Under the pieces are notes generated by a model. That model searched no databases, was not told the DNA's origin, and was given only the letters and a program-made list of their open reading frames with translations. The translations under genes were made by a program, and so were the position numbers. From positions 62,001 to 126,000 of the forward strand of contig JARGOX010000010.1 in the NCBI GenBank assembly GCA_029233925.1: 64,000 nt of DNA, given 5' to 3'. Source of the DNA: Rhizobiaceae bacterium (GTDB lineage Bacteria > Pseudomonadota > Alphaproteobacteria > Rhizobiales > Rhizobiaceae). Below, piece by piece: positions 53,084 through 62,308 of this stretch (within the stretch, counting starts at the first letter, position 1; every line of letters starts with the position of its first letter).

Positions 53084-53592
53084 CAGGCCGAGGAAGGGGA
53101 CGGGAGAAAATCCCATCAACCCGGGGGGCGGTGGCCTTTCCGCGACAGGGCGTGTCTGATTCGCTCTGCCTGTTAATTGCGATGAGAAGCTGACGACGCG
53201 GAGCCTGCCAACGGGAAGCTTGCCAACGGGGAGCCTGCCAACGGGGAGCCTGCCAACGGGGAGCCTGCCAACGGGGAGCCTGAATGCCGACCTTTGCGGT
53301 GGAATGATTGCATCGAGAGAAAATTGTGTTTCGAAAGGGGAGGCGACGCGGCGCTTCCGGAGTGGAATATCGAAGGCCGGAAGCTGGTATCGTTGCTATC
53401 ACCAGACCGGCGAGAAGGAAGCGCCCAAGCAGCGCCAGCCCTCGCGTTGGCAGCTCAACGCGCATGGGGCTTCATTCTCCAGCTTCAACGAAGCGGCACT
53501 GGACATCACGCCTGCCGAGATTTTGTTAAATTTCGCTAATAAGCCGAGACGCTCCACTTCAATTGCGATTTCCTGGTCGGTTGCCATACAGT
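53084..53592. other. Gene-poor stretch with minisatellite after the MhpA-like gene
   Basis: About 510 bases. Besides the 15-bp repeat (separate entry), it contains a possible short minus-strand ORF joined to the XRE gene's end (53399-53596). Several overlapping frames in both strands are proline/arginine-rich and look non-coding. Confidence 0.35.
53204..53284. repeat. 15-bp minisatellite, five copies
   Basis: CCTGCCAACGGGGAG is repeated head-to-tail at 53204, 53219, 53234, 53249 and 53264, then a partial CCTGAA. The first two copies have one change each, the last three are identical. Being a multiple of three, it gives pentapeptide repeats in every frame (LPTGS on plus, QAPRW on minus), but no credible gene contains it. 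Confidence 0.85.
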
Positions 53593-53596
53593 TCAC
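53399..53596 (-). CDS. Possible small ORF downstream of the XRE regulator
   Basis: 65 residues starting with GTG 53596, which overlaps the XRE gene's TGA (GTGA), or ATG 53587 (MATDQEIAIEVERLGLLAKFNKISAG). The N-terminal half is helix-like and well composed, the C-terminal third is not. Translational coupling would allow expression. No family recognised. Confidence 0.25.
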   Translation of the reverse strand: MNCMATDQEIAIEVERLGLLAKFNKISAGVMSSAASLKLENEAPCALSCQREGWRCLGASFSPVW

Positions 53597-54483
53597 TTAT
53601 GGCGATCCAATATGTCACTGACGTTTTTAATCGCGTCATTCCCCTTCCAGCTGTTGCGCCATAGTTCCGCTGTTACCTCTTGATGGAGCTGCACCGAATC
53701 TTGCGCTGCTGTAATAGTCGCCACCCCCACACGAACATTTGCGTAGAGCCCAAGACGAAAGGAGCTTGTGGCAACCTGCGCCAATTTACCACTCCTGAAA
53801 ATTTGAAAACTTGCGCCTGGCAGAGAGTCTTCCACGATACCAATTTGAACCCCCATCGGTTGGTCGACCAAAAGTCTCAAAATGTTCTCCACCTCAATCA
53901 GCGCTGAAGTTTTCCTTTTTGCCAGTTCTTCACCTTCCAGGCCCTGTCTACCGACGATTCCCAAACCCAGAAATTGCTCCAGCTCTGCGGCAGATACAAG
54001 ACTTACGATGCTTGGGCGGCGGTCTCGGTAGGTTTCCTTGCGCTCCAACAGTATGGCGATTATCTGGTCCAGCTCTGAGTCAAAATTGCTTCTGTTGGCT
54101 GCTGCATGTGGCACACTTTCCGACAAAACATCACGCAAACATTTATCGAAATGATCTGTCGTCAGAAGAAACGATATTGGTCCGAACAAAACGCTGATTT
54201 GGTCGGCATTTGATTCCAGTTGATGCATTCTTTCATAGAAAGCCAAAGAGGAAGAGATAAACTCGGAACCGACACCCAAAAGGGATGCGAGTGAAATGCC
54301 GAGTAAATCTGCAATTTTACCCAAGGCGTCTACTCGGATGGGCTGTCCAGCTTCGTATCGATAGATCGCAGACCTGGACAATCCTGTTTTGGCGGCGACC
54401 TCTTCAGGTGACAGGTCTTTTGCAATCCGATGGGCTCTAATCCTTTCACCTACTTGCAATATGGTCTCATATTGAGAGAGCAT
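53593..54483 (-). CDS. XRE-family regulator with a large C-terminal domain
   Basis: 296 residues. HTH at about 12-67 (VGERIRAHRIAKDLSPEEVAAKTGLSRSAIYRYEAGQPIRVDALGKIADLLGIS). The remaining 220 residues (from GVGSEFISSSLAFYERMHQLE) resemble the ligand-sensing portion of regulators accompanying transport operons, but I cannot name a family. ATG 54483 has GGAG seven bases upstream, so the longer ORF to 54510 is rejected. It is divergent from the NitT-type transport/nucleoside operon, its probable target. Confidence 0.75.
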   Translation of the reverse strand: MLSQYETILQVGERIRAHRIAKDLSPEEVAAKTGLSRSAIYRYEAGQPIRVDALGKIADLLGISLASLLGVGSEFISSSLAFYERMHQLESNADQISVLFGPISFLLTTDHFDKCLRDVLSESVPHAAANRSNFDSELDQIIAILLERKETYRDRRPSIVSLVSAAELEQFLGLGIVGRQGLEGEELAKRKTSALIEVENILRLLVDQPMGVQIGIVEDSLPGASFQIFRSGKLAQVATSSFRLGLYANVRVGVATITAAQDSVQLHQEVTAELWRNSWKGNDAIKNVSDILDRHK

Positions 54484-55161
54484 TTTTTTCTCCGTTTGAA
54501 ATTTCAACAAATACTCAATGGAATGGTCATCGTGCCAACGGATTCTTCAGATTCATACAATTTGAGATTATTCTCAATATTGACATATCTGATAAGTCTG
54601 CTGCAGCTGTACCTGACTCCCTTGATCATATCTTCTCCACAGGTCGACGTCTCTATATACGACTATGACGCATGTCTCTATCGCTAAAGTGTTTTAAAAT
54701 GTGGTCAATACAAGCGTGAAGCAGATAAATAATGATTTAAGATCATATGTTTATTAAAAAACGAGCTGTTGCAAAAATTCTCAAATGATCGCCGTCCGGT
54801 CGGTGCAACAAAGGCAGGATAGCCCATCTCAGGCTGCTTGCTCACACTCCGGTTTCAATTGCAATTCCTGCTATTCGGATACTTTAAAGAATCGAGAATG
54901 AACATATATTGTCGCAGAAAGCCTCGATGTAAAAGTTTGTCCCAAAAATGGGATTATTCTTGACACTTGGAATTTTTGTATCATAGTCAGGCTAAGTCGG
55001 GACACTGCAAGTCCTGAAAATTGACCAGATGTTAAAGCGGATCGGCAACTTGATCACTGAAGACCAATAACCATTGGCGCCGCCACTGTTTGGTGGGCAT
55101 ATCGGTTAAATCCGTATTGACCGCTTGAAACCGACCCTATGCTTCATCGAAGGGGCTGAAC
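54484..55161. promoter_or_regulatory. Divergent control region of the nucleoside-transport operon
   Basis: About 680 AT-rich bases. The inverted repeat TTGAGA (54562-54567) / TCTCAA (54572-54577) with a 4-bp spacer lies 80-95 bases upstream of the XRE start, a candidate self-operator. TTGACA at 54960-54965 with CATAGT at 54982-54987 (16-base spacer) is a plausible promoter pointing to the ABC operon, leaving a leader of about 170 bases. No gene detected. Confidence 0.4.
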
Positions 55162-55908
55162 TTGATAAAAATTAAGGGCGTCACAAAAACGTTTGGGGTC
55201 GGTGCAGACAGGGTCAACGCTTTGACGCCAGTGGATATGCATATTGAAAAAGGCGAATTCATAGCAATCGTTGGCCCATCGGGGTGTGGTAAGTCTACGT
55301 TACTTCGTTTGATTGCAGGACTTGAAGATGTAACGGATGGTTCGATTGATCTGGGCTCAAAAGACAAGAAGAGGCCTGTCGGTTTCGTCTTTCAAGATGC
55401 CGTGCTTTTGCCCTGGAAAACGGTTGCAGAGAACATACGATTTCCACTGGATACTTCAGCCGTGCCCAGATCCGTCAGCGACGCAAAGGTCGCTGAGCTT
55501 ATCGCATTAATTGGCCTGACAGGTTTTGAGCGAGCATTGCCCAAACAGCTCTCTGGCGGCATGCGTCAACGCGCTGCGATTGCGCGCGCATTGGCAGATG
55601 ACCCGCCAATTCTATTGATGGATGAGCCGTTCTCGGCAGTCGATTTGTTGACTCGAGAAACGCTCAACGATGAACTTTTGAAAATTTGGGAGCAAACAGG
55701 CAAAACCATAGTGTTGGTTACCCATTCAGTTGAAGAAGCTGCCTATCTGGGTACGCGTGTGATGGTAATGAGTGCCAGGCCTGGAAGGCTGCGTAAAACA
55801 TTCAAGGCGGATATTCCCCAGCCGAGGAGTGAGGAGACCAAACGCGATCCAAGGTATCTTGACCTCGTCAGTGAGCTCAGAACGATGATGCGGGAGCCAG
55901 TGCTTTGA
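55162..55908 (+). CDS. ABC transporter ATP-binding protein, NitT/TauT type
   Basis: 248 residues. Walker A GPSGCGKST at 38-46, Q-loop GFVFQDAVLLPWKTVAENI, signature LSGGMRQR at about 131-138, Walker B ILLMDEPFSAVD, VTHSVEEAAYL with switch histidine. LPWKTV and the LSGGMRQR form mark the SsuB/TauB/ThiZ group. Starts with TTG 55162 behind GAAGGGG. First of six tightly packed genes, two of which are enzymes of nucleoside phosphorolysis. Confidence 0.88.
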   Translation: MIKIKGVTKTFGVGADRVNALTPVDMHIEKGEFIAIVGPSGCGKSTLLRLIAGLEDVTDGSIDLGSKDKKRPVGFVFQDAVLLPWKTVAENIRFPLDTSAVPRSVSDAKVAELIALIGLTGFERALPKQLSGGMRQRAAIARALADDPPILLMDEPFSAVDLLTRETLNDELLKIWEQTGKTIVLVTHSVEEAAYLGTRVMVMSARPGRLRKTFKADIPQPRSEETKRDPRYLDLVSELRTMMREPVL

Positions 55909-56672
55909 TCTCGAAGCTGAGAGCCTTTGGCGAATATGGGGTGGCCCTATCGCTACTCTTGTTTGCATGGTGGTACGCTACGGGGCCCATGGAGCTCCCA
56001 CACTATCTTTTGCCGACGCCACAGTCGGTCGGTGCAACGCTTTGGAAGATGCTTGTCGCGGGCGAACTGATCCATCACCAGCTGTTCACAATCAAAAATA
56101 TTCTACTTGGATTGTTAATCGGTACGCTGTGCGGTGTCCTGTTGGCCTACTTTTTCTTCAAGCTTCCAAGGCTGGGGCATGCTTTGGAGGGGCCGCTTGT
56201 AATCATGCAAACCGCACCGAAGATTGCGCTCGCTCCTTTGGTTATTATTTGGTTCGGCTTGGGTCTCACGGCCAAAATCGTACTTATTTTCAGCCTTGTG
56301 TTTTTCCCCGTATTCGCGGGCAGTTTAGCTGGTTTTCGTGGCATTGATAGCAGAATGCACGATTTGGCGCGGCTGCTGAAACTGCGCCCTTGGCAAAGGT
56401 TTTATCATATTGACCTGCCGGCGGCTCTGCCCGGTATTTTTGTTGGCATCAAAATTGGTGCGGTACAAGCGCTTGTCGGGGCAATTTTGGCTGAGTGGAT
56501 GTCAGGCAATCAAGGTCTCGGTTATCTGATGACTTTTGCATCAGCGACCTACAAAACATCCATTCTATTTGGCGCTGTTTTATTGACATCGTTGCTGGGC
56601 ATTTTGATGCACGCGCTTCTCAATACGATTGAGTCGACACTTTTGGCGTGGAGCATTGAAGATGACCGATAA
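55905..56672 (+). CDS. ABC transporter permease, NitT/TauT type (first)
   Basis: 255 residues, six transmembrane segments. FYHIDLPAALPGIFVGIKIGAVQALVGAILAEWMSGNQGLGYLM is the SsuC-type EAA region. Starts with TTG 55905 overlapping the ATPase stop (TTGA). Two different permeases in the operon (this and 58479) imply a heterodimer, while most NitT importers use one permease twice. Confidence 0.85.
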   Translation: MISKLRAFGEYGVALSLLLFAWWYATGPMELPHYLLPTPQSVGATLWKMLVAGELIHHQLFTIKNILLGLLIGTLCGVLLAYFFFKLPRLGHALEGPLVIMQTAPKIALAPLVIIWFGLGLTAKIVLIFSLVFFPVFAGSLAGFRGIDSRMHDLARLLKLRPWQRFYHIDLPAALPGIFVGIKIGAVQALVGAILAEWMSGNQGLGYLMTFASATYKTSILFGAVLLTSLLGILMHALLNTIESTLLAWSIEDDR

Positions 56673-57471
56673 ACACCGCCCGACAGCTCTGATGCCATTT
56701 TACAATGGAAGGCCACCACATCTGCCTTGCGGTCCCGGTGACTTGGCAAGGGACGTTCTTATCCCAGGCGATCCGGATAGGGTCAGCTTATTGGCCGACA
56801 TGCTGGACAATGTCGTAAGCTTTGGGCGCAAGCGCGAGTTTGCGGTGATAACGGGGACTTACAACGGGCATCATTTATCGATTTGCTCAAGCGGAATTGG
56901 TGGGCCTTCTACCGAAATAGCTTTGGTCGAATTGAGTATGCTCGGGGTGAAGCGCGTTATTCGCATTGGTGGCATGTCGGCGCTTGTTCCACAAATACAG
57001 ACTGGTTCCTTTCTGATCGTTGAGAATGCAATTGGACTGACAGGTGTCAGTGATTTGTATGGTGGGAAGGGTTCGCGATCCTACGCGGATGCCGGTTTGA
57101 CCAAGGCGCTTGTACAATCTGCGCGCAACCAGGGCCTGCCAGCGCGGGCAGGCACTGTAGCGACGACAGATAGCTACTATCTGGGCCAGGATCGGCCCAT
57201 TTCCCTGAATGAAAACGTTCCTGATACCGAGATCAGATACCTCGACCAATTTCGCGATGAAGGCGCTGTCGGCGTCGATATGGAAAGCCATGTCATTTTG
57301 TCCGTGAGCAAAAGACTGGGCCTGAAGGCAGCTTGCCTGCTCGGTGTGCACGGCAATCGGGCAACCAATGATTGGTTGGTTGATTACGAGAACACCCAGC
57401 GCAACCTGCTGTCCGTCGCCGGATCGGCGCTCAAATTTACCCCCAAAACTGAACTGTCACAACAGGAGTGA
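56662..57471 (+). CDS. Nucleoside phosphorylase (uridine phosphorylase-like, PNP/UDP family)
   Basis: 269 residues. Family elements: phosphate-binding VLIPGDPDRVSLLADML near the N-terminus, TGTYNGHHLSICSSGIGGPSTEIALVEL, RIGGMSALVPQIQTG, and VGVDMESHVILSVSKRLGLKAACLLG with the ribose-binding ME pair. Uses phosphate to split a nucleoside into base and (deoxy)ribose 1-phosphate. ATG 56662 lies within the permease's last codons (11-base overlap). Its product is the substrate of the phosphopentomutase at the operon's end. Confidence 0.85.
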   Translation: MTDKHRPTALMPFYNGRPPHLPCGPGDLARDVLIPGDPDRVSLLADMLDNVVSFGRKREFAVITGTYNGHHLSICSSGIGGPSTEIALVELSMLGVKRVIRIGGMSALVPQIQTGSFLIVENAIGLTGVSDLYGGKGSRSYADAGLTKALVQSARNQGLPARAGTVATTDSYYLGQDRPISLNENVPDTEIRYLDQFRDEGAVGVDMESHVILSVSKRLGLKAACLLGVHGNRATNDWLVDYENTQRNLLSVAGSALKFTPKTELSQQE

Positions 57472-57476
57472 AAGAC

Positions 57477-58475
57477 ATGTATGCCAAATTGAAATCTATG
57501 GTAGCCACACTATCTGTGGTCGCCATGTCGCTGGCAGGATCCCAAGCATTTGCCGCTGACAAAATCATCTTTCAAATCGATGGAGGAGCTGTTCCATTCT
57601 ATTCGCCCCTTTATGCGGGTGTCGAAAATGGGTTTTTTGAAGAACAGGACATTGATATTGAGTTCATCTACGCAGGTGCCTCCGATATTCTGACCAACAT
57701 AGCCGCCGGCAATGTACAATTTGGTTTTCCCAATGGTGACGCTGTGATCGCTGCTGTTGCAAATGGATTGCCTGTCAAAGTGGTCCACACCACCTATCAG
57801 CGTGGTATCGGCGCTTTGCTCGCCAAGACAGAAAGCGGTATCGAAACCTATGCGGATCTGAAAGGCAAAACCGTTGCGGTCACGTCGTTCGGAAGCCCGA
57901 ACTATCTCCAGTTGCAAGTTGGCTTGAAAAAAGCAGGGCTTTCACTCGACGATGTAAACGTCGAAATTGTTGCCGGTGGCGCAATTGTTCAGGCTCTGCA
58001 AAGTGACACTGTTGACGCGATCATTTTTTCTGAACTGAGAAAATATGCGCTCGAAGCAAATGGTTTCAATGTGAACATGATTTTGTCAAACGACTTCCTG
58101 CCATCATTTGGCAATGTCGTTGTGACAAGCAGTGACCTCCTTGCCAGCAACCCTGATCTTGTCAAGCGGGTCGCGAATGCCGTGACCAAATCATATGAAT
58201 GGGTTATCGATGGAAATGTCGACAAGGCACTCCAAATTTCGTTCGACAAATACACGCCTACCTGGGCCGATCAAAAGGATGTTCTTTCGACAGCTTTCAA
58301 CGAAACATTCGTCAAGTCCGTTTGGCAAAGCGCTTTGACCAAAGAAAAGGGCCTTGGCTCGGCTGATCTTGATGCATGGCAGCAGAATATTGATATTCTT
58401 GCAGAATATAACGTACTGGAAAATGCACCAAAAGCAGCGGATTTTGTTGTCGATCCTTCAATGATCGGCAAGTAA
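57477..58475 (+). CDS. NMT1/THI5-like ABC substrate-binding protein
   Basis: 332 residues with signal peptide (LKSMVATLSVVAMSLAGSQAFAAD). Mature portion KIIFQIDGGAVPFYSPLYAGVENGFFEEQDIDIEFIYAG is typical of NMT1/THI5/SsuA binding proteins, which bring pyrimidine precursors, riboflavin, sulfonates or formyl-pyrimidines. IAAGNVQFGFPNGDAVIAAVANGLPVKVVHT follows. In this operon a nucleoside ligand is inferred. Start ATG 57477 has AGGAG eight bases before; GTG 57468 is an alternative. Confidence 0.85.
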   Translation: MYAKLKSMVATLSVVAMSLAGSQAFAADKIIFQIDGGAVPFYSPLYAGVENGFFEEQDIDIEFIYAGASDILTNIAAGNVQFGFPNGDAVIAAVANGLPVKVVHTTYQRGIGALLAKTESGIETYADLKGKTVAVTSFGSPNYLQLQVGLKKAGLSLDDVNVEIVAGGAIVQALQSDTVDAIIFSELRKYALEANGFNVNMILSNDFLPSFGNVVVTSSDLLASNPDLVKRVANAVTKSYEWVIDGNVDKALQISFDKYTPTWADQKDVLSTAFNETFVKSVWQSALTKEKGLGSADLDAWQQNIDILAEYNVLENAPKAADFVVDPSMIGK

Positions 58476-58478
58476 GTC

Positions 58479-59216
58479 ATGCTTCTACGAGGTCTCCTGG
58501 GTCTTGTTGGTTTTGTCGCGCTCTGGAGCGCGGCAATTCCTCTTTTTGGTGTCCCCGATCACGTTCTTCCAAGCCCTCTGGAAGTGGTGGAGCGGCTTGG
58601 GTTTTTATACGATCATGGCAATCTATTGATGCACATTGAAGTGACGCTAATCGAGATATTCTGGGGTTTCACGATCGGTCTCGTGTTGGGCGTTTTATTT
58701 GCCGTGATATTTGCCAGAGTTCCATTTTTGGAAAGAATTTCGACGCCGTTGATATTGCTGCTACAAACCGCACCCAAGATTGCAATTGCACCTTTGCTGT
58801 TGCTTTGGCTGGGATTGGGCGCAGCCCCAAAAGTTGTTCTCGTTGCGATAGTTACATTCTTCCCGGTTATGACAGCGATGCTGACCGGCATCAAATATGT
58901 CAACAAATCCTATATTGATCTGGCCGATGTTTTGAAACTCAACAGCTGGCAGCGTTTTTTGTACATTGAATTTCCTTCCGCAATTCCAACTCTTTTTGCC
59001 GGCGCAACGGTTGCAACAACCCTGGCGATGACCGCTGCGGTGATTGGCGAATTAATGGGGGCCAACAAGGGAATTGGCTTTCTGCTTGCCACAGGGCAGG
59101 AGGATGCCGACACAGCCACCGTGATCGCCATGGTCATCTTGTTGTCCGCAATCGGTTGGGCGTTTTACGCCCTTCTGGATTATCTGCGCGTTCGTATGGA
59201 AGATCGGTATTCATGA
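58479..59216 (+). CDS. ABC transporter permease, NitT/TauT type (second)
   Basis: 245 residues, six transmembrane segments, SsuC-like with LLLQTAPKIAIAPLLLLWLGLGAAPKVVLVAIVTFFPVM and LNSWQRFLYIEFPSAIPTLFAGATVATTLAMTAAVIGELMGANKGIGFLL. It is clearly paralogous to the first permease in its MQTAPKIALAPLVIIWFGLG segment. Coupled to deoB-like by ATGA. Confidence 0.85.
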   Translation: MLLRGLLGLVGFVALWSAAIPLFGVPDHVLPSPLEVVERLGFLYDHGNLLMHIEVTLIEIFWGFTIGLVLGVLFAVIFARVPFLERISTPLILLLQTAPKIAIAPLLLLWLGLGAAPKVVLVAIVTFFPVMTAMLTGIKYVNKSYIDLADVLKLNSWQRFLYIEFPSAIPTLFAGATVATTLAMTAAVIGELMGANKGIGFLLATGQEDADTATVIAMVILLSAIGWAFYALLDYLRVRMEDRYS

Positions 59217-60481
59217 CTGATCGCTTGAGTGATTGCGGCGATGATGCCCGTGAATTGCAACGCACAACAGGAACAAGCAGCCGACGGGTTTTTCTATGTG
59301 TTCTGGATTCTGTCGGTTGTGGAGGCGCTGCTGACGCTGACAAATTTGGTGATGGCGGCGCGAACACCTTGCTGCATATCGCTGAGGCATGTGCCAACGG
59401 TCTTTGTGAGGAGGGACGCACCGGCAAGCTTCATCTGCCAAACCTGTGCAGTCTTGGATTGGGTGCTGCAATTGAAAAATCTTGCGGAGTGGCAGCACCT
59501 GGCCTTCCATTGCCAAAAATCGGGGCGCAATGGAGTGTCCTTGAGGAGCGCTCAAATGGGAAGGATACACAAACGGGCCATTGGGAACTGGCTGGCAAGG
59601 TTTTATCGCAAAACTGGCACTATTTTCCGGATACGGAACCGGCGTTCCCCAATGACCTCATGGAGCGTTTTTTTGCCCTTTCCGGTATAGATGGATCACT
59701 CGGCAACGTTCATGGATCCGGCACCGAGATGATCACACGATACGCTGAAGAACATGTGCTTACAGGACAGCCAATTATCTACACGTCGGCGGATAGTGTC
59801 CTTCAAATTGCAGCTCACGAAACAGAATTCGGCCTCCAGCGTCTCTACGAAACATGCCTGTGTGCGGCGGAAGTGTTTCACCCCTTGCGCGTGGGTCGCA
59901 TTATAGCGCGCCCATTCGCGGGCAATGCTGGAACAGGATTCACAAGAACGAACAATCGCAGAGACTTTGCAATTCCACCACCAGATGGGACGATCTGTGA
60001 CCGCGTTGTAAAATCAGGTGCCAGGGTCCATGCAATTGGGAAGATCGGTGATATCTTTGCCCACCAGGGTATCAGTGAGGTTATAAAAGGCGAAAATGAT
60101 ATGGTTTTGTTTGATCGATTGATTGAACAAATCGAGAGCGCTGGCGATGGCGACCTGGTTTTTGCAAATTTTGTCGAGTTTGACAGCCTGTATGGCCACA
60201 GGCGTGATCCAAATGGATACGCACGGGCATTGGAAGTGTTTGATGGGCGCCTCCGCGATGCCATCAAGTTACTGCGTGAAGGCGATCTGCTCATGCTGAC
60301 GGCGGATCATGGCAATGACCCTACGTGGGGTGGTTTTGATCACACGCGTGAACGTGTTCCACTCCTTTTGGCAAGTTCACCCACATATCCTCCATTTGAT
60401 TTTCCACACTTGTCTGAAATTCGACCATTTGACACTGTGTCCAAACTCGTTGTGCATCATCTGAACCTGCTGGATCGATAG
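59213..60481 (+). CDS. deoB: Phosphopentomutase
   Basis: 422 residues in the alkaline-phosphatase superfamily. CVLDSVGCGGAADADKFGDGGANTLLHIA provides metal ligands, SNGKDTQTGHWE contains the probable activated threonine T119, VHGSGTEMITRYAEEH and VFANFVEFDSLYGHRRDPNGY belong to the cap and active site, and TADHGNDPTWGGFDHTRERVP closes the metal site. Converts ribose or deoxyribose 1-phosphate to the 5-phosphate, which follows the phosphorylase step directly. About 20-25 extra residues at the N-terminus precede the conserved core. Confidence 0.92.
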   Translation: MTDRLSDCGDDARELQRTTGTSSRRVFLCVLDSVGCGGAADADKFGDGGANTLLHIAEACANGLCEEGRTGKLHLPNLCSLGLGAAIEKSCGVAAPGLPLPKIGAQWSVLEERSNGKDTQTGHWELAGKVLSQNWHYFPDTEPAFPNDLMERFFALSGIDGSLGNVHGSGTEMITRYAEEHVLTGQPIIYTSADSVLQIAAHETEFGLQRLYETCLCAAEVFHPLRVGRIIARPFAGNAGTGFTRTNNRRDFAIPPPDGTICDRVVKSGARVHAIGKIGDIFAHQGISEVIKGENDMVLFDRLIEQIESAGDGDLVFANFVEFDSLYGHRRDPNGYARALEVFDGRLRDAIKLLREGDLLMLTADHGNDPTWGGFDHTRERVPLLLASSPTYPPFDFPHLSEIRPFDTVSKLVVHHLNLLDR

Positions 60482-60955: not shown

Positions 60956-61002
60956 TGGCTGGGGAACCTGGATTCGAACCAGGACTAACGGAGTCAGAGT
61001 CC
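60956..61002 (-). other. 3' half of tRNA-Gln(CUG): attachment-site remnant of an integrated element
   Basis: On the minus strand, bases 61002-60956 give the 3' half of tRNA-Gln: the anticodon loop CTCTGAC (anticodon CUG), the 3' strand of the anticodon stem TCCGT, the variable loop, a complete T arm (CCTGG/TTCGAAT/CCAGG) and the acceptor 3' strand TTCCCCAGCCA with encoded CCA. To the right of 61002 similarity stops abruptly, so the 5' half is missing. This is the usual mark left when an element recombines into the 3' end of a tRNA gene: the displaced 3' piece stays at one border, while the intact tRNA is rebuilt at the other. Orientation places the element to the right, beyond 64000 in part. 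Confidence 0.75.
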
Positions 61003-61031
61003 CGACTACCCACTTGTTATAGAACTGCTTT

Positions 61032-61057: not shown

Positions 61058-61240
61058 ATGCAAAATCAAAGGGTTACAACAAAAGTTCCAACTGATAATC
61101 GGCTTTCCGAAGCGGCTCGCTGGTACGCAGAAAACTGCCAAAATAGTACGCGGGCATTCGTTCCACTACTTCGACGGAAATTCGGTCTGACAGCTTTACA
61201 GGCTATCCAAGCTGCCCAGATGGCACGCGAGTTGCGCTGA
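61058..61240 (+). CDS. Small phage-element ORF, probable helix-turn-helix protein
   Basis: 60 residues: MQNQRVTTKVPTDNRLSEAARWYAENCQ at the start, then FVPLLRRKFGLTALQAIQAAQMARELR, which resembles a short recognition-helix protein. ATG 61058 has CGGAGA nine bases upstream. Its TGA overlaps the next gene's ATG (TGATG), so both are co-translated. No family named. Confidence 0.5.
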   Translation: MQNQRVTTKVPTDNRLSEAARWYAENCQNSTRAFVPLLRRKFGLTALQAIQAAQMARELR

Positions 61241-62046
61241 TGGCCCGGCTTCAAGAAAATGATATTTTGTTCGCCTACAAGGCACTCAATATCATGCCTG
61301 GTCTGTCAAGTAATACGCGCCGTGTTGGGGGGTTGTTGATCGACCATTTCAATCGCAAAACAGGCCAATGTGACCCCAGTATTGGCCGTCTAGCGCGGAT
61401 TCTTGATATAAACCGGGCAACCGTCATACGCGCCACTGCTGAGCTGTGCAGCGACGATTGCGGACTGTTTGAGAAAGTGAGTCATGGCGGGCTGTCACAT
61501 CGTGCGAGCTATTTGCCGAATTGGGCAAAGTTTCGTGAATTTGTCGCTGATTTGGGAGCCAGAATGAAGACCGGCGAGGGTCCGGCAAAAGTCGCAAAAC
61601 TGCGACGTTCAGAGTCGCAAAACTGCGACGTTAAAGGTCGCAATACTGCGACCCAAACCAATCTAATAAACCAATCTAATAAACCAATCTGCACTTTGAG
61701 CACTGAGTCTCAGTATGCAAAACCGCGAGTTCTGAGACCCGCTGAGCCTATGAATGGGCTTTTGAAAGGGAACAAGCCGCCAGGTGCTCGTACCCTTCTC
61801 CTGCCCATCAATGGAGGCAAGTCTGTATCGAAGGGGAAAGCGGCATGGTGCTCAGCGGAACGACGCTTGGACCAGGATATCCGAGCATTTGGCGAGGCCA
61901 AGTACGCTGATTGCATCGAGCGCATGACACCCGCACTGATGCAATCAGCTACACAGGCTGAGATGGAACGGCGGGGATCTGGCGGCTTGTTTGTCCTGGA
62001 AGTGTTGAATTATCCAACAGGTGGGCGGCGTCATGGCAGCGATTGA
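61240..62046 (+). CDS. Replication-initiator-like wHTH protein with an internal origin-like repeat region
   Basis: 268 residues. The N-terminal third is a winged helix: NTRRVGGLLIDHFNRKTGQCDPSIGRLARILDINRATVIRATAEL. The middle (about 115-150) is low-complexity and coincides with DNA repeats (61591-61690). The C-terminal third (KAAWCSAERRLDQDIRAFGEAKYADCIERM) is helical. The build, an initiator with iterons inside its own gene, resembles lambda O-type phage replication proteins, although sequence identity to them is not evident. No polymerase or helicase motifs. Function as initiator is inferred. Confidence 0.6.
   Translation: MARLQENDILFAYKALNIMPGLSSNTRRVGGLLIDHFNRKTGQCDPSIGRLARILDINRATVIRATAELCSDDCGLFEKVSHGGLSHRASYLPNWAKFREFVADLGARMKTGEGPAKVAKLRRSESQNCDVKGRNTATQTNLINQSNKPICTLSTESQYAKPRVLRPAEPMNGLLKGNKPPGARTLLLPINGGKSVSKGKAAWCSAERRLDQDIRAFGEAKYADCIERMTPALMQSATQAEMERRGSGGLFVLEVLNYPTGGRRHGSD
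61591..61652. repeat. Three palindromic 23-bp iterons inside the initiator-like gene
   Basis: GTCGCAAAACTGCGAC occurs at 61591-61606 and 61614-61629, and GTCGCAATACTGCGAC at 61637-61652. The spacing is exactly 23 bases each time. Each unit is itself a perfect dyad (GTCGCA/TGCGAC, four-base centre). Since 23 is not a multiple of three the protein sequence is not repeated in register, so selection is on DNA. Candidate initiator-binding iterons. Confidence 0.8.
61655..61690. repeat. 13-bp AT-rich direct repeats next to the iterons
   Basis: AAACCAATCTAAT at 61655-61667 and 61668-61680, and the first ten bases again at 61681-61690. Period 13, not in codon register. Directly adjacent to the three iterons, they look like the easily melted element of a replication origin. 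Confidence 0.75.
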
Positions 62047-62308
62047 AAAGGAAAATGAACCTATGCTTTTCGACTTTGTGCAGCTTGAATGCACCGCCTG
62101 CGGGGGAACGTTTAGCGTCCCAAAGCGGCCAGGCGGTCGTTCTGCCTATTGTTCAGCAGGCTGCCGATCCATTGGTGTGGCCAATGCCAATCGTCGCTAT
62201 CGGAAAAATGTAAAGCGGCGATTGGATCAAGGTCAGGCAAGCGATCGAGCGTTTGCTGATGCCTTGATGGCAGCAGTGATGGTCAAGAATGAGAGGGGGG
62301 GCGGGTAA
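62033..62308 (+). CDS. Small zinc-ribbon-like protein of the element
   Basis: 91 residues. CTACGG near the N-terminus and YCSAGCRSIG form a CxxC/CxxxC zinc-binding pair, followed by a basic segment NANRRYRKNVKRRLDQGQA. Typical of small phage DNA-binding proteins of unknown role. Overlaps the previous gene by 14 bases. ATG 62021 is also in frame. Confidence 0.55.
   Translation: MAAIEKENEPMLFDFVQLECTACGGTFSVPKRPGGRSAYCSAGCRSIGVANANRRYRKNVKRRLDQGQASDRAFADALMAAVMVKNERGGG

Follow-up and report, generated by a model that had tools for sequence, protein, structure and literature searches.

What does an ATP-binding cassette (ABC) importer of the NitT/TauT type bring into the cell when genes of nucleoside phosphorolysis stand among its own? 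The question is raised by six genes at positions 55162-60481 of a 64,000-nucleotide stretch of DNA (the window) from a Rhizobiaceae bacterium (assembly GCA_029233925.1, contig JARGOX010000010.1, positions 62,001 to 126,000), in which an ATPase, two permeases and an NMT1/THI5-type substrate-binding protein share an operon with a nucleoside phosphorylase and the phosphopentomutase DeoB. An original prediction had taken this operon for a NitT/TauT importer joined to nucleoside phosphorolysis, a reading that gene context supports and that we would narrow to orotidine as the best ligand candidate, because both its neighbours and the operator sites suggest that the base set free is orotate. On this basis, we read the operon as a dedicated route for the uptake and cleavage of orotidine (orotate riboside), with a probability of roughly 60%.

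Operon architecture and conservation

The window's list of open reading frames (ORFs) and Pfam searches bear out the six overlapping or closely spaced plus-strand genes and the domains that the original prediction had named. The row starts with an SsuB/TauB-like ATPase (55162-55908; PF00005, ABC_tran, 116.9 bits) and permease 1 (55905-56672; PF00528, BPD_transp_1, 78.6 bits), continues with a phosphorylase of the uridine-phosphorylase branch, a proposed orotidine phosphorylase by domain and site alignment (56662-57471; PF01048, PNP_UDP_1, 112 bits), and the NMT1/THI5-type binding protein (57477-58475; PF09084, 125.8 bits against a cut-off of 20.5), and ends with permease 2 (58479-59216; PF00528, 101.7 bits) and DeoB (59213-60481; Pfam Metalloenzyme; NF003766, 454.7 bits against a cut-off of 256). 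With the ATG starts that we prefer from the sequence (56662 for the phosphorylase, 57477 for the binding protein and 59213 for DeoB), adjacent genes overlap by 4-11 bases or are separated by 3-5, and the N terminus of the binding protein resembles, by eye, a signal peptide, its mature part being taken as 57555-58475. Binding protein, permeases and ATPase all exceed the Pfam cut-offs of the families that mark a NitT/TauT-type importer, and DeoB is a phosphopentomutase at the curated NCBIfam cut-off.

We compared 25 loci, two of which are near-identical Enterococcus plasmids. Phosphorylase and binding protein are both present in every one, and the order permease-phosphorylase-binding protein-permease, in which the phosphorylase gene immediately precedes that of the binding protein and shares its strand, is kept in 23; this recurrence means that the arrangement is not due to chance. 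The ATPase heads the row in 22 of these 23 loci, the exception being L026, where only an N-terminal ATPase piece is found, on the opposite strand; permease 1 of L055 is broken up into two ORFs. In 11 of the 25 loci deoB comes after the row, on its strand; in 2 it is divergent, and in 12 it lies outside the fetched stretch. Leaving aside two plasmid records among those 12, a search of the remaining ten genomes found a DeoB match elsewhere in all ten, four of them with a stop. A homologue of the regulator described below lies within the stretch in 16 of the 25 loci.

The binding protein belongs to a sharply bounded clade. Of the 30 best among 461 plasmid matches, six are 64-74% identical to it (Neorhizobium, Agrobacterium and Microvirga), two from Enterococcus reach 43.6% and the other 22 do not exceed 30.4%; a tally across all 461 records puts 7 at 60-80% identity. 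The clade is also rare, occurring in 10 of 397 genomes of the order sample (E value ≤ 1e-60) and, at E ≤ 1e-40, in 2 of 385 genomes of the class sample, 1 of 398 of the phylum sample and 7 of 101 of the family sample, the window's own genome being counted in each. The co-occurrence of enzyme and importer, the lack of which would have told against the original prediction, holds here as well: at E ≤ 1e-30 the phosphorylase occurs in 12 of the 397 order genomes, namely all ten carriers of the binding protein plus two weak matches of 33-36% identity.

The most conventional explanation, in which this is a standard NitT/TauT importer of a thiamine precursor, a sulfonate or a similar compound with the two enzymes in the operon by accident, is very unlikely: whereas the nearest solved folds do bind thiamin and a formylated aminopyrimidine (FAMP), enzymes and importer stay associated in Alphaproteobacteria and, in a different arrangement, on Enterococcus plasmids, and the binding protein falls below the cut-off of the aliphatic sulfonate family SsuA_fam (TIGR01728; 97.8 against 163.5 bits in NCBIfam). 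None of the six genes reaches a thiamine-family cut-off in the Pfam and NCBIfam scans, NMT1/THI5 itself apart, and no Rfam family reaches its gathering score anywhere in the window, which speaks against riboswitch control. The window's own genome has 24 NMT1 matches.

On the two Enterococcus plasmids (L029 and L031), a PucR-type regulator and a four-gene importer are accompanied by a divergent row of a major facilitator superfamily (MFS) protein, phosphorylase and deoB. The nearest relatives of this MFS protein are aromatic-acid symporters, at a score under the cut-off. The operon of the Neorhizobium sp. SOG26 plasmid (L026) looks decayed, with no intact ATPase, deoB as two ORFs and a shortened M20 ORF.

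Linkage to orotate genes

In Cohaesibacter and Agrobacterium loci, the genes next to the operon encode a class-1 dihydroorotate dehydrogenase (PyrD), a PyrK-like subunit and an M20 carbamoylase. The locus of genome G1154 also has PyrC and PyrE, G040 and G1145 have matches to both in their linked loci, and G1101 has a fragment of PyrC. Searches with the Agrobacterium PyrD as query found it at E ≤ 1e-110 in 16 of 17 genomes that carry the binding protein, within 10 kb of the binding-protein gene in 11 of the 17; with Pseudooceanicola spongiae and an Ahrensia metagenome-assembled genome, where PyrD also lies within 10 kb by contig ranges, PyrD is present in 18 of 19 genomes in total and linked in 13 of them. 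If genes were placed at random in 5 Mb, linkage within 10 kb would arise by chance in about 0.4% of genomes. Two of six plasmid records have PyrD beside the importer, and the SOG26 plasmid keeps an M20 stretch.

The order sample alone serves as a base-rate control for PyrD. At E ≤ 1e-60, PyrD is found in 21 of 219 genomes, made up of all five carriers of the binding protein and 16 of the 214 others (Fisher p of about 5e-6, uncorrected for kinship, which inflates this value). Binding-protein status was taken from the 397-genome sample, of which the 219 appear to be a part, 178 rows not being listed.

PyrD, PyrC, PyrE and the carbamoylase of the linked and orotate operons pass their NCBIfam cut-offs, and the dehydrogenases scanned (L054, L027 and L100) exceed the cut-off for dihydroorotate dehydrogenase while falling below that for the dihydropyrimidine enzyme PreA. 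The PyrK domain PF10418 exceeds its Pfam cut-off in proteins of L027, L063 and L054. For the high-GC loci L058, L063 and L064, gene content was taken from alignments, as the ab initio gene call is misleading there. An ORF at L054:13488-14390 was considered as a novel gene and rejected, since PyrK is encoded on the opposite strand.

Small ORFs of about 105-148 codons lie near M20 or PyrE at L054:10771-11217 and L102:5059-5445, with similar ones in L101, L103 and L106 and others of the same type at L062:15791-16108 and L100:5194-5532. The two that were scanned, those of L054 and L102, have no Pfam match. The L062 ORF aligns with positions 445-542 of the Agrobacterium M20 protein (552 residues), which the L100 ORF also matches, and from these alignments the small ORF may be a detached domain of a longer carbamoylase.

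The orotate operon of the same genome

The genome that contains the window (G000) has its own PyrD, on contig C3 (locus L100), in a row formed by a paralogue of the regulator, DctP, DctQ, DctM, PyrK, PyrD, M20, PyrC, PyrE and a small protein; within this tripartite ATP-independent periplasmic (TRAP) importer, DctQ and DctM are assigned by size and order only. NCBIfam scores exceed the cut-offs for class-1 PyrD (361.7 against 269), PyrC (428.4 against 293), PyrE (389 against 245) and the carbamoylase (273.4 against 204). DctP matches Protein Data Bank entry 4NN3 at 443-444 bits, with the next match at 163, and 203 of 313 aligned residues are identical. One source describes 4NN3 as crystallized with orotic acid bound (PMC11668362), and another counts orotic acid among TRAP ligands (PMC5812351). 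In genome G040 (L050), the ABC operon itself adjoins a row of TRAP, PyrK, PyrD, M20 and PyrC genes. Because of the own-genome operon with its 4NN3-like DctP and of this adjacency in L050, the base released by the phosphorylase is probably orotate.

The same linkage could mean that the ABC importer carries orotate or dihydroorotate, with the phosphorylase and DeoB serving another, internal nucleoside. We regard this as improbable, since the own-genome orotate operon is already served by the TRAP importer with the 4NN3-like binding protein, the ABC operon of L050 has a TRAP importer next to it, and the phosphorylase gene sits inside the transporter genes in all 23 loci that keep the order. Under the orotidine reading, the two systems would divide the work: the 4NN3-like TRAP system would bring orotate, the window's ABC operon its nucleoside.

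Regulator and proposed operator sites

A gene for an XRE-type helix-turn-helix regulator (53593-54510, minus strand; Pfam HTH_3, 48.6 bits), whose start may be internal, near 54483, is divergent to the operon; the original prediction had omitted it. At E ≤ 1e-15 the regulator has only two paralogues in its own genome, one at the orotate operon (53%) and one at another TRAP locus (38%). At L112 (G000:C17:33000-48000), the third regulator of this family has as neighbours a DctP-type gene, an amidohydrolase and a short-chain dehydrogenase, and in Neorhizobium galegae another NMT1-type importer and another regulator of this family (L030:9938-13628) adjoin the operon.

Upstream of the ABC operon, a perfect palindrome, TTGAGATTATTCTCAA, at 54562-54577 is the proposed operator of the regulator. 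A second operator-like site lies at 54769-54784 (17.6 bits) and a third at 54948-54963 (17.4 bits), the latter overlapped by a promoter-like match (54960-54987) at its TTGACA hexamer; the excess of such promoter-like matches is weak (4 found, compared with a mean of 2.3 in shuffles). In several loci the operator boxes are 18 bases apart.

A first operator matrix comprised seven sites, including an L027 site in a region shared with pyrK, and was compared with mononucleotide shuffles; the repeat matrix comprised six sites before ABC operons and none before pyrK, with 20 dinucleotide shuffles per locus. The best match of the repeat matrix stands beside the regulator gene and above the shuffles in four of five orotate loci that are not linked to the ABC operon: L100 (19.2 bits; shuffle maximum 15.1), L101 (23.4; 16.1), L102 (23.4; 14.4) and L104 (18.8; 13.7). 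The site separates the regulator gene from the TRAP genes in L100, L101 and L102 (TRAP by size and order in the last two); in L104 it falls between the regulator and an unscanned 356-codon ORF, with the second and third matches (12.9 and 11.8 bits) before pyrK. L063 also rises above its shuffles (12.8 against 10.4 bits), with a site between pyrK and pyrE. The pattern TTGAGANWWTTCTNRA has one exact match in the 6.1 Mb of the own genome, the window site, and 17 rows with one mismatch, among them the window site as read on the opposite strand and a site at the orotate promoter; it was composed after the L100 site had been seen and is weaker evidence for that.

The phosphorylase pocket

We aligned 24 phosphorylases of the clade with four Udp proteins, including that of Escherichia coli (b3831), whose numbering is used. 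H8, R30, R48, R91, Q166, R168, M197, E198 and R223 are kept in all 24. Of these, Q166, R168 and R223 are taken to contact the 2,4-dioxo face common to uracil and orotate. Four further pocket-region positions are changed: T94G, F162Y and I228W in 24 of 24, and I220 to H in 23 and to R in one. Positions 94, 220 and 228 presumably face the phosphate as well as the remainder of the base, with T94, F162 and I220 as the remaining pocket residues; on these presumed roles, the uracil-binding residues are present in 24 of 24 proteins, and T94, F162 and I220 are retained in none. The Enterococcus phosphorylase shares all four changes, yet it is 32% identical and is encoded apart from the importer genes. 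An AlphaFold model of the phosphorylase (mean predicted local distance difference test, pLDDT, of 61.5, from a six-row alignment) was too poor to test the fit of a carboxylate and was not used.

These residues bear on the main rival explanation, in which the operon imports uridine or pyrimidine nucleosides generally, the phosphorylase is a uridine phosphorylase that has diverged, and linkage to orotate genes reflects only a common pyrimidine regulon. The retained uracil-facing residues agree with it, as does the best NCBIfam model, which is uridine phosphorylase, albeit below the cut-off (TIGR01718; 145.2 against 280.3 bits); uridine also remains a rival because the own genome has no second Udp-like phosphorylase at E ≤ 1e-30. 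We nevertheless consider it unlikely, given the four changes throughout the clade, a genomic linkage that is to orotate genes, scanned dehydrogenases (L054, L027 and L100) that are dihydroorotate-type and not PreA-type by cut-off, and the absence of any cytidine deaminase family from 40 neighbour ORFs scanned with Pfam.

Another acidic or modified pyrimidine nucleoside, such as a 5-substituted uridine, could be processed alike, and the altered residues at 220, 221 and 228 might point towards C5 of the base as well as towards C6. With PyrD, PyrC and PyrE of these operons being orotate-pathway enzymes by NCBIfam cut-off, we hold such a ligand to be quite improbable.

The own genome also has a classical nucleoside cluster on contig C7 (G000:C7), with DeoB, Add, Upp, DeoA and PNP each above its curated cut-off. 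The window DeoB is 53% identical to the C7 copy and, since that cluster already holds a DeoB, duplicates a function. The presence of this cluster elsewhere in the genome counts in favour of the orotidine reading.

The binding protein

The predicted model of the binding protein (mean pLDDT 76.9, used for fold comparison only) comes closest in fold to 4NMY, which has thiamin bound, and to 3IX1, which binds FAMP, at about 20% identity, and the ligands of both contain a pyrimidine ring. Residues invariant among 19 clade members, numbered on the mature protein, include Q7, D9, N60, D62, Y81, Q82, S114, N116, R162, Y164 and N187, among which R162 could meet a carboxylate.

Edges of the operon

Just past the operon, window positions 60960-61010 look by eye like the tail of a tRNA, where ARAGORN finds none, and two ORFs with no Pfam match follow (61240-62046 and 62021-62308). 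Tail and ORFs are possibly the edge of a mobile element. On the other side, an in-frame short tandem repeat, PTGSL, lies at 53220-53290, at the start of the ORF after an FAD monooxygenase gene.

Discussion

In the route that we propose for orotidine, the NMT1-type protein would catch the nucleoside in the periplasm for import by the ATPase and its two permeases, and the Udp-like phosphorylase would split it with phosphate into orotate and ribose 1-phosphate, which DeoB would convert to ribose 5-phosphate. In the own genome, orotate would then enter the separate L100 operon, where PyrE could salvage it to orotidine 5'-monophosphate; alternatively, PyrD and PyrK would reduce it to dihydroorotate, PyrC would form N-carbamoylaspartate by ring opening, and from this the M20 carbamoylase would free aspartate. 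The L100 operon would have a TRAP importer of its own, with a binding protein closely related to the one bound to orotic acid, and the paralogous XRE regulators with their similar operators may coordinate the two operons.

Several observations weigh against this route. The own-genome PyrD lies on another contig than the window operon, and the absence of a further Udp-like phosphorylase from that genome at E ≤ 1e-30 leaves this enzyme as a candidate for uridine. Genome G523 carries importer and phosphorylase with no PyrD match at E ≤ 1e-10, four of the six plasmid records (SOG26, Microvirga and the two Enterococcus) have none at E ≤ 1e-20 in searches that covered the plasmids and not the chromosomes, and the 16 PyrD-positive control genomes without the binding protein mean that orotate genes often occur without the nucleoside operon. 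The PyrK proteins fall below their NCBIfam cut-offs (in L100, a best score of 126.1 bits against cut-offs of 219-314). The fifth unlinked orotate locus, L103, has no operator match above its shuffles (11.5 bits; shuffle maximum 11.9), and the same is true of L060, L022, L064, L106 and L107. The loci are not independent cases either, with 23 of 25 from one class and many from one genus. As to the pocket, we infer only from side chains that the basic or polar residue and the added room at the changed positions would suit a 6-carboxylate.

Parts of the route resemble known systems. Clostridium oroticum reportedly degrades orotate reductively, through dihydroorotate and N-carbamoylaspartate to aspartate; the proposed steps are alike, and here a TRAP importer and PyrE (L100) and, in linked loci, an adjoining nucleoside operon are added. 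The phosphorylase shares the PNP_UDP_1 family and nine kept residues with E. coli Udp, from which it differs by its score below the uridine phosphorylase cut-off and by the T94G, F162Y, I220H/R and I228W changes. With the ThiY-type binding proteins (3IX1 and 4NMY) and yeast Thi5, the binding protein has its predicted fold, its Pfam family and, on the orotidine reading, a pyrimidine-ring ligand in common, whereas identity to the ThiY-type proteins is only about 20% and the importer genes here are joined to a phosphorylase and DeoB. BmpA/Nup-type ABC systems, which we take to be a nucleoside importer class of a different protein family than NMT1/THI5, would be alike in function if the nucleoside reading is right. 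The same would hold for CNT and NHS, nucleoside importers according to PMC13328217; here, the NMT1/THI5 family would take their place.

Judged by title and abstract start among the matches listed, the openly licensed PubMed Central literature describes no orotidine importer or orotidine phosphorylase, and it holds no paper joining NMT1, a nucleoside phosphorylase and an ABC transporter; the novelty of an orotidine route is thus provisional. One source reports orotidine at a high level in the blood of uraemic patients (PMC8745165). We see even odds for the broader proposal, in which a NitT/TauT-type orotidine importer and an orotidine phosphorylase would open extracellular orotidine as a source of carbon, nitrogen and pyrimidine, scattered through Alphaproteobacteria and rearranged on Enterococcus plasmids, where the MFS protein might move the freed orotate. 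If true, this would give the very common NMT1 importer family a new class of ligand, the uridine-phosphorylase branch a new activity and orotidine a bacterial fate, and the combination of neighbours and operator sites could help to annotate other NMT1 importers.

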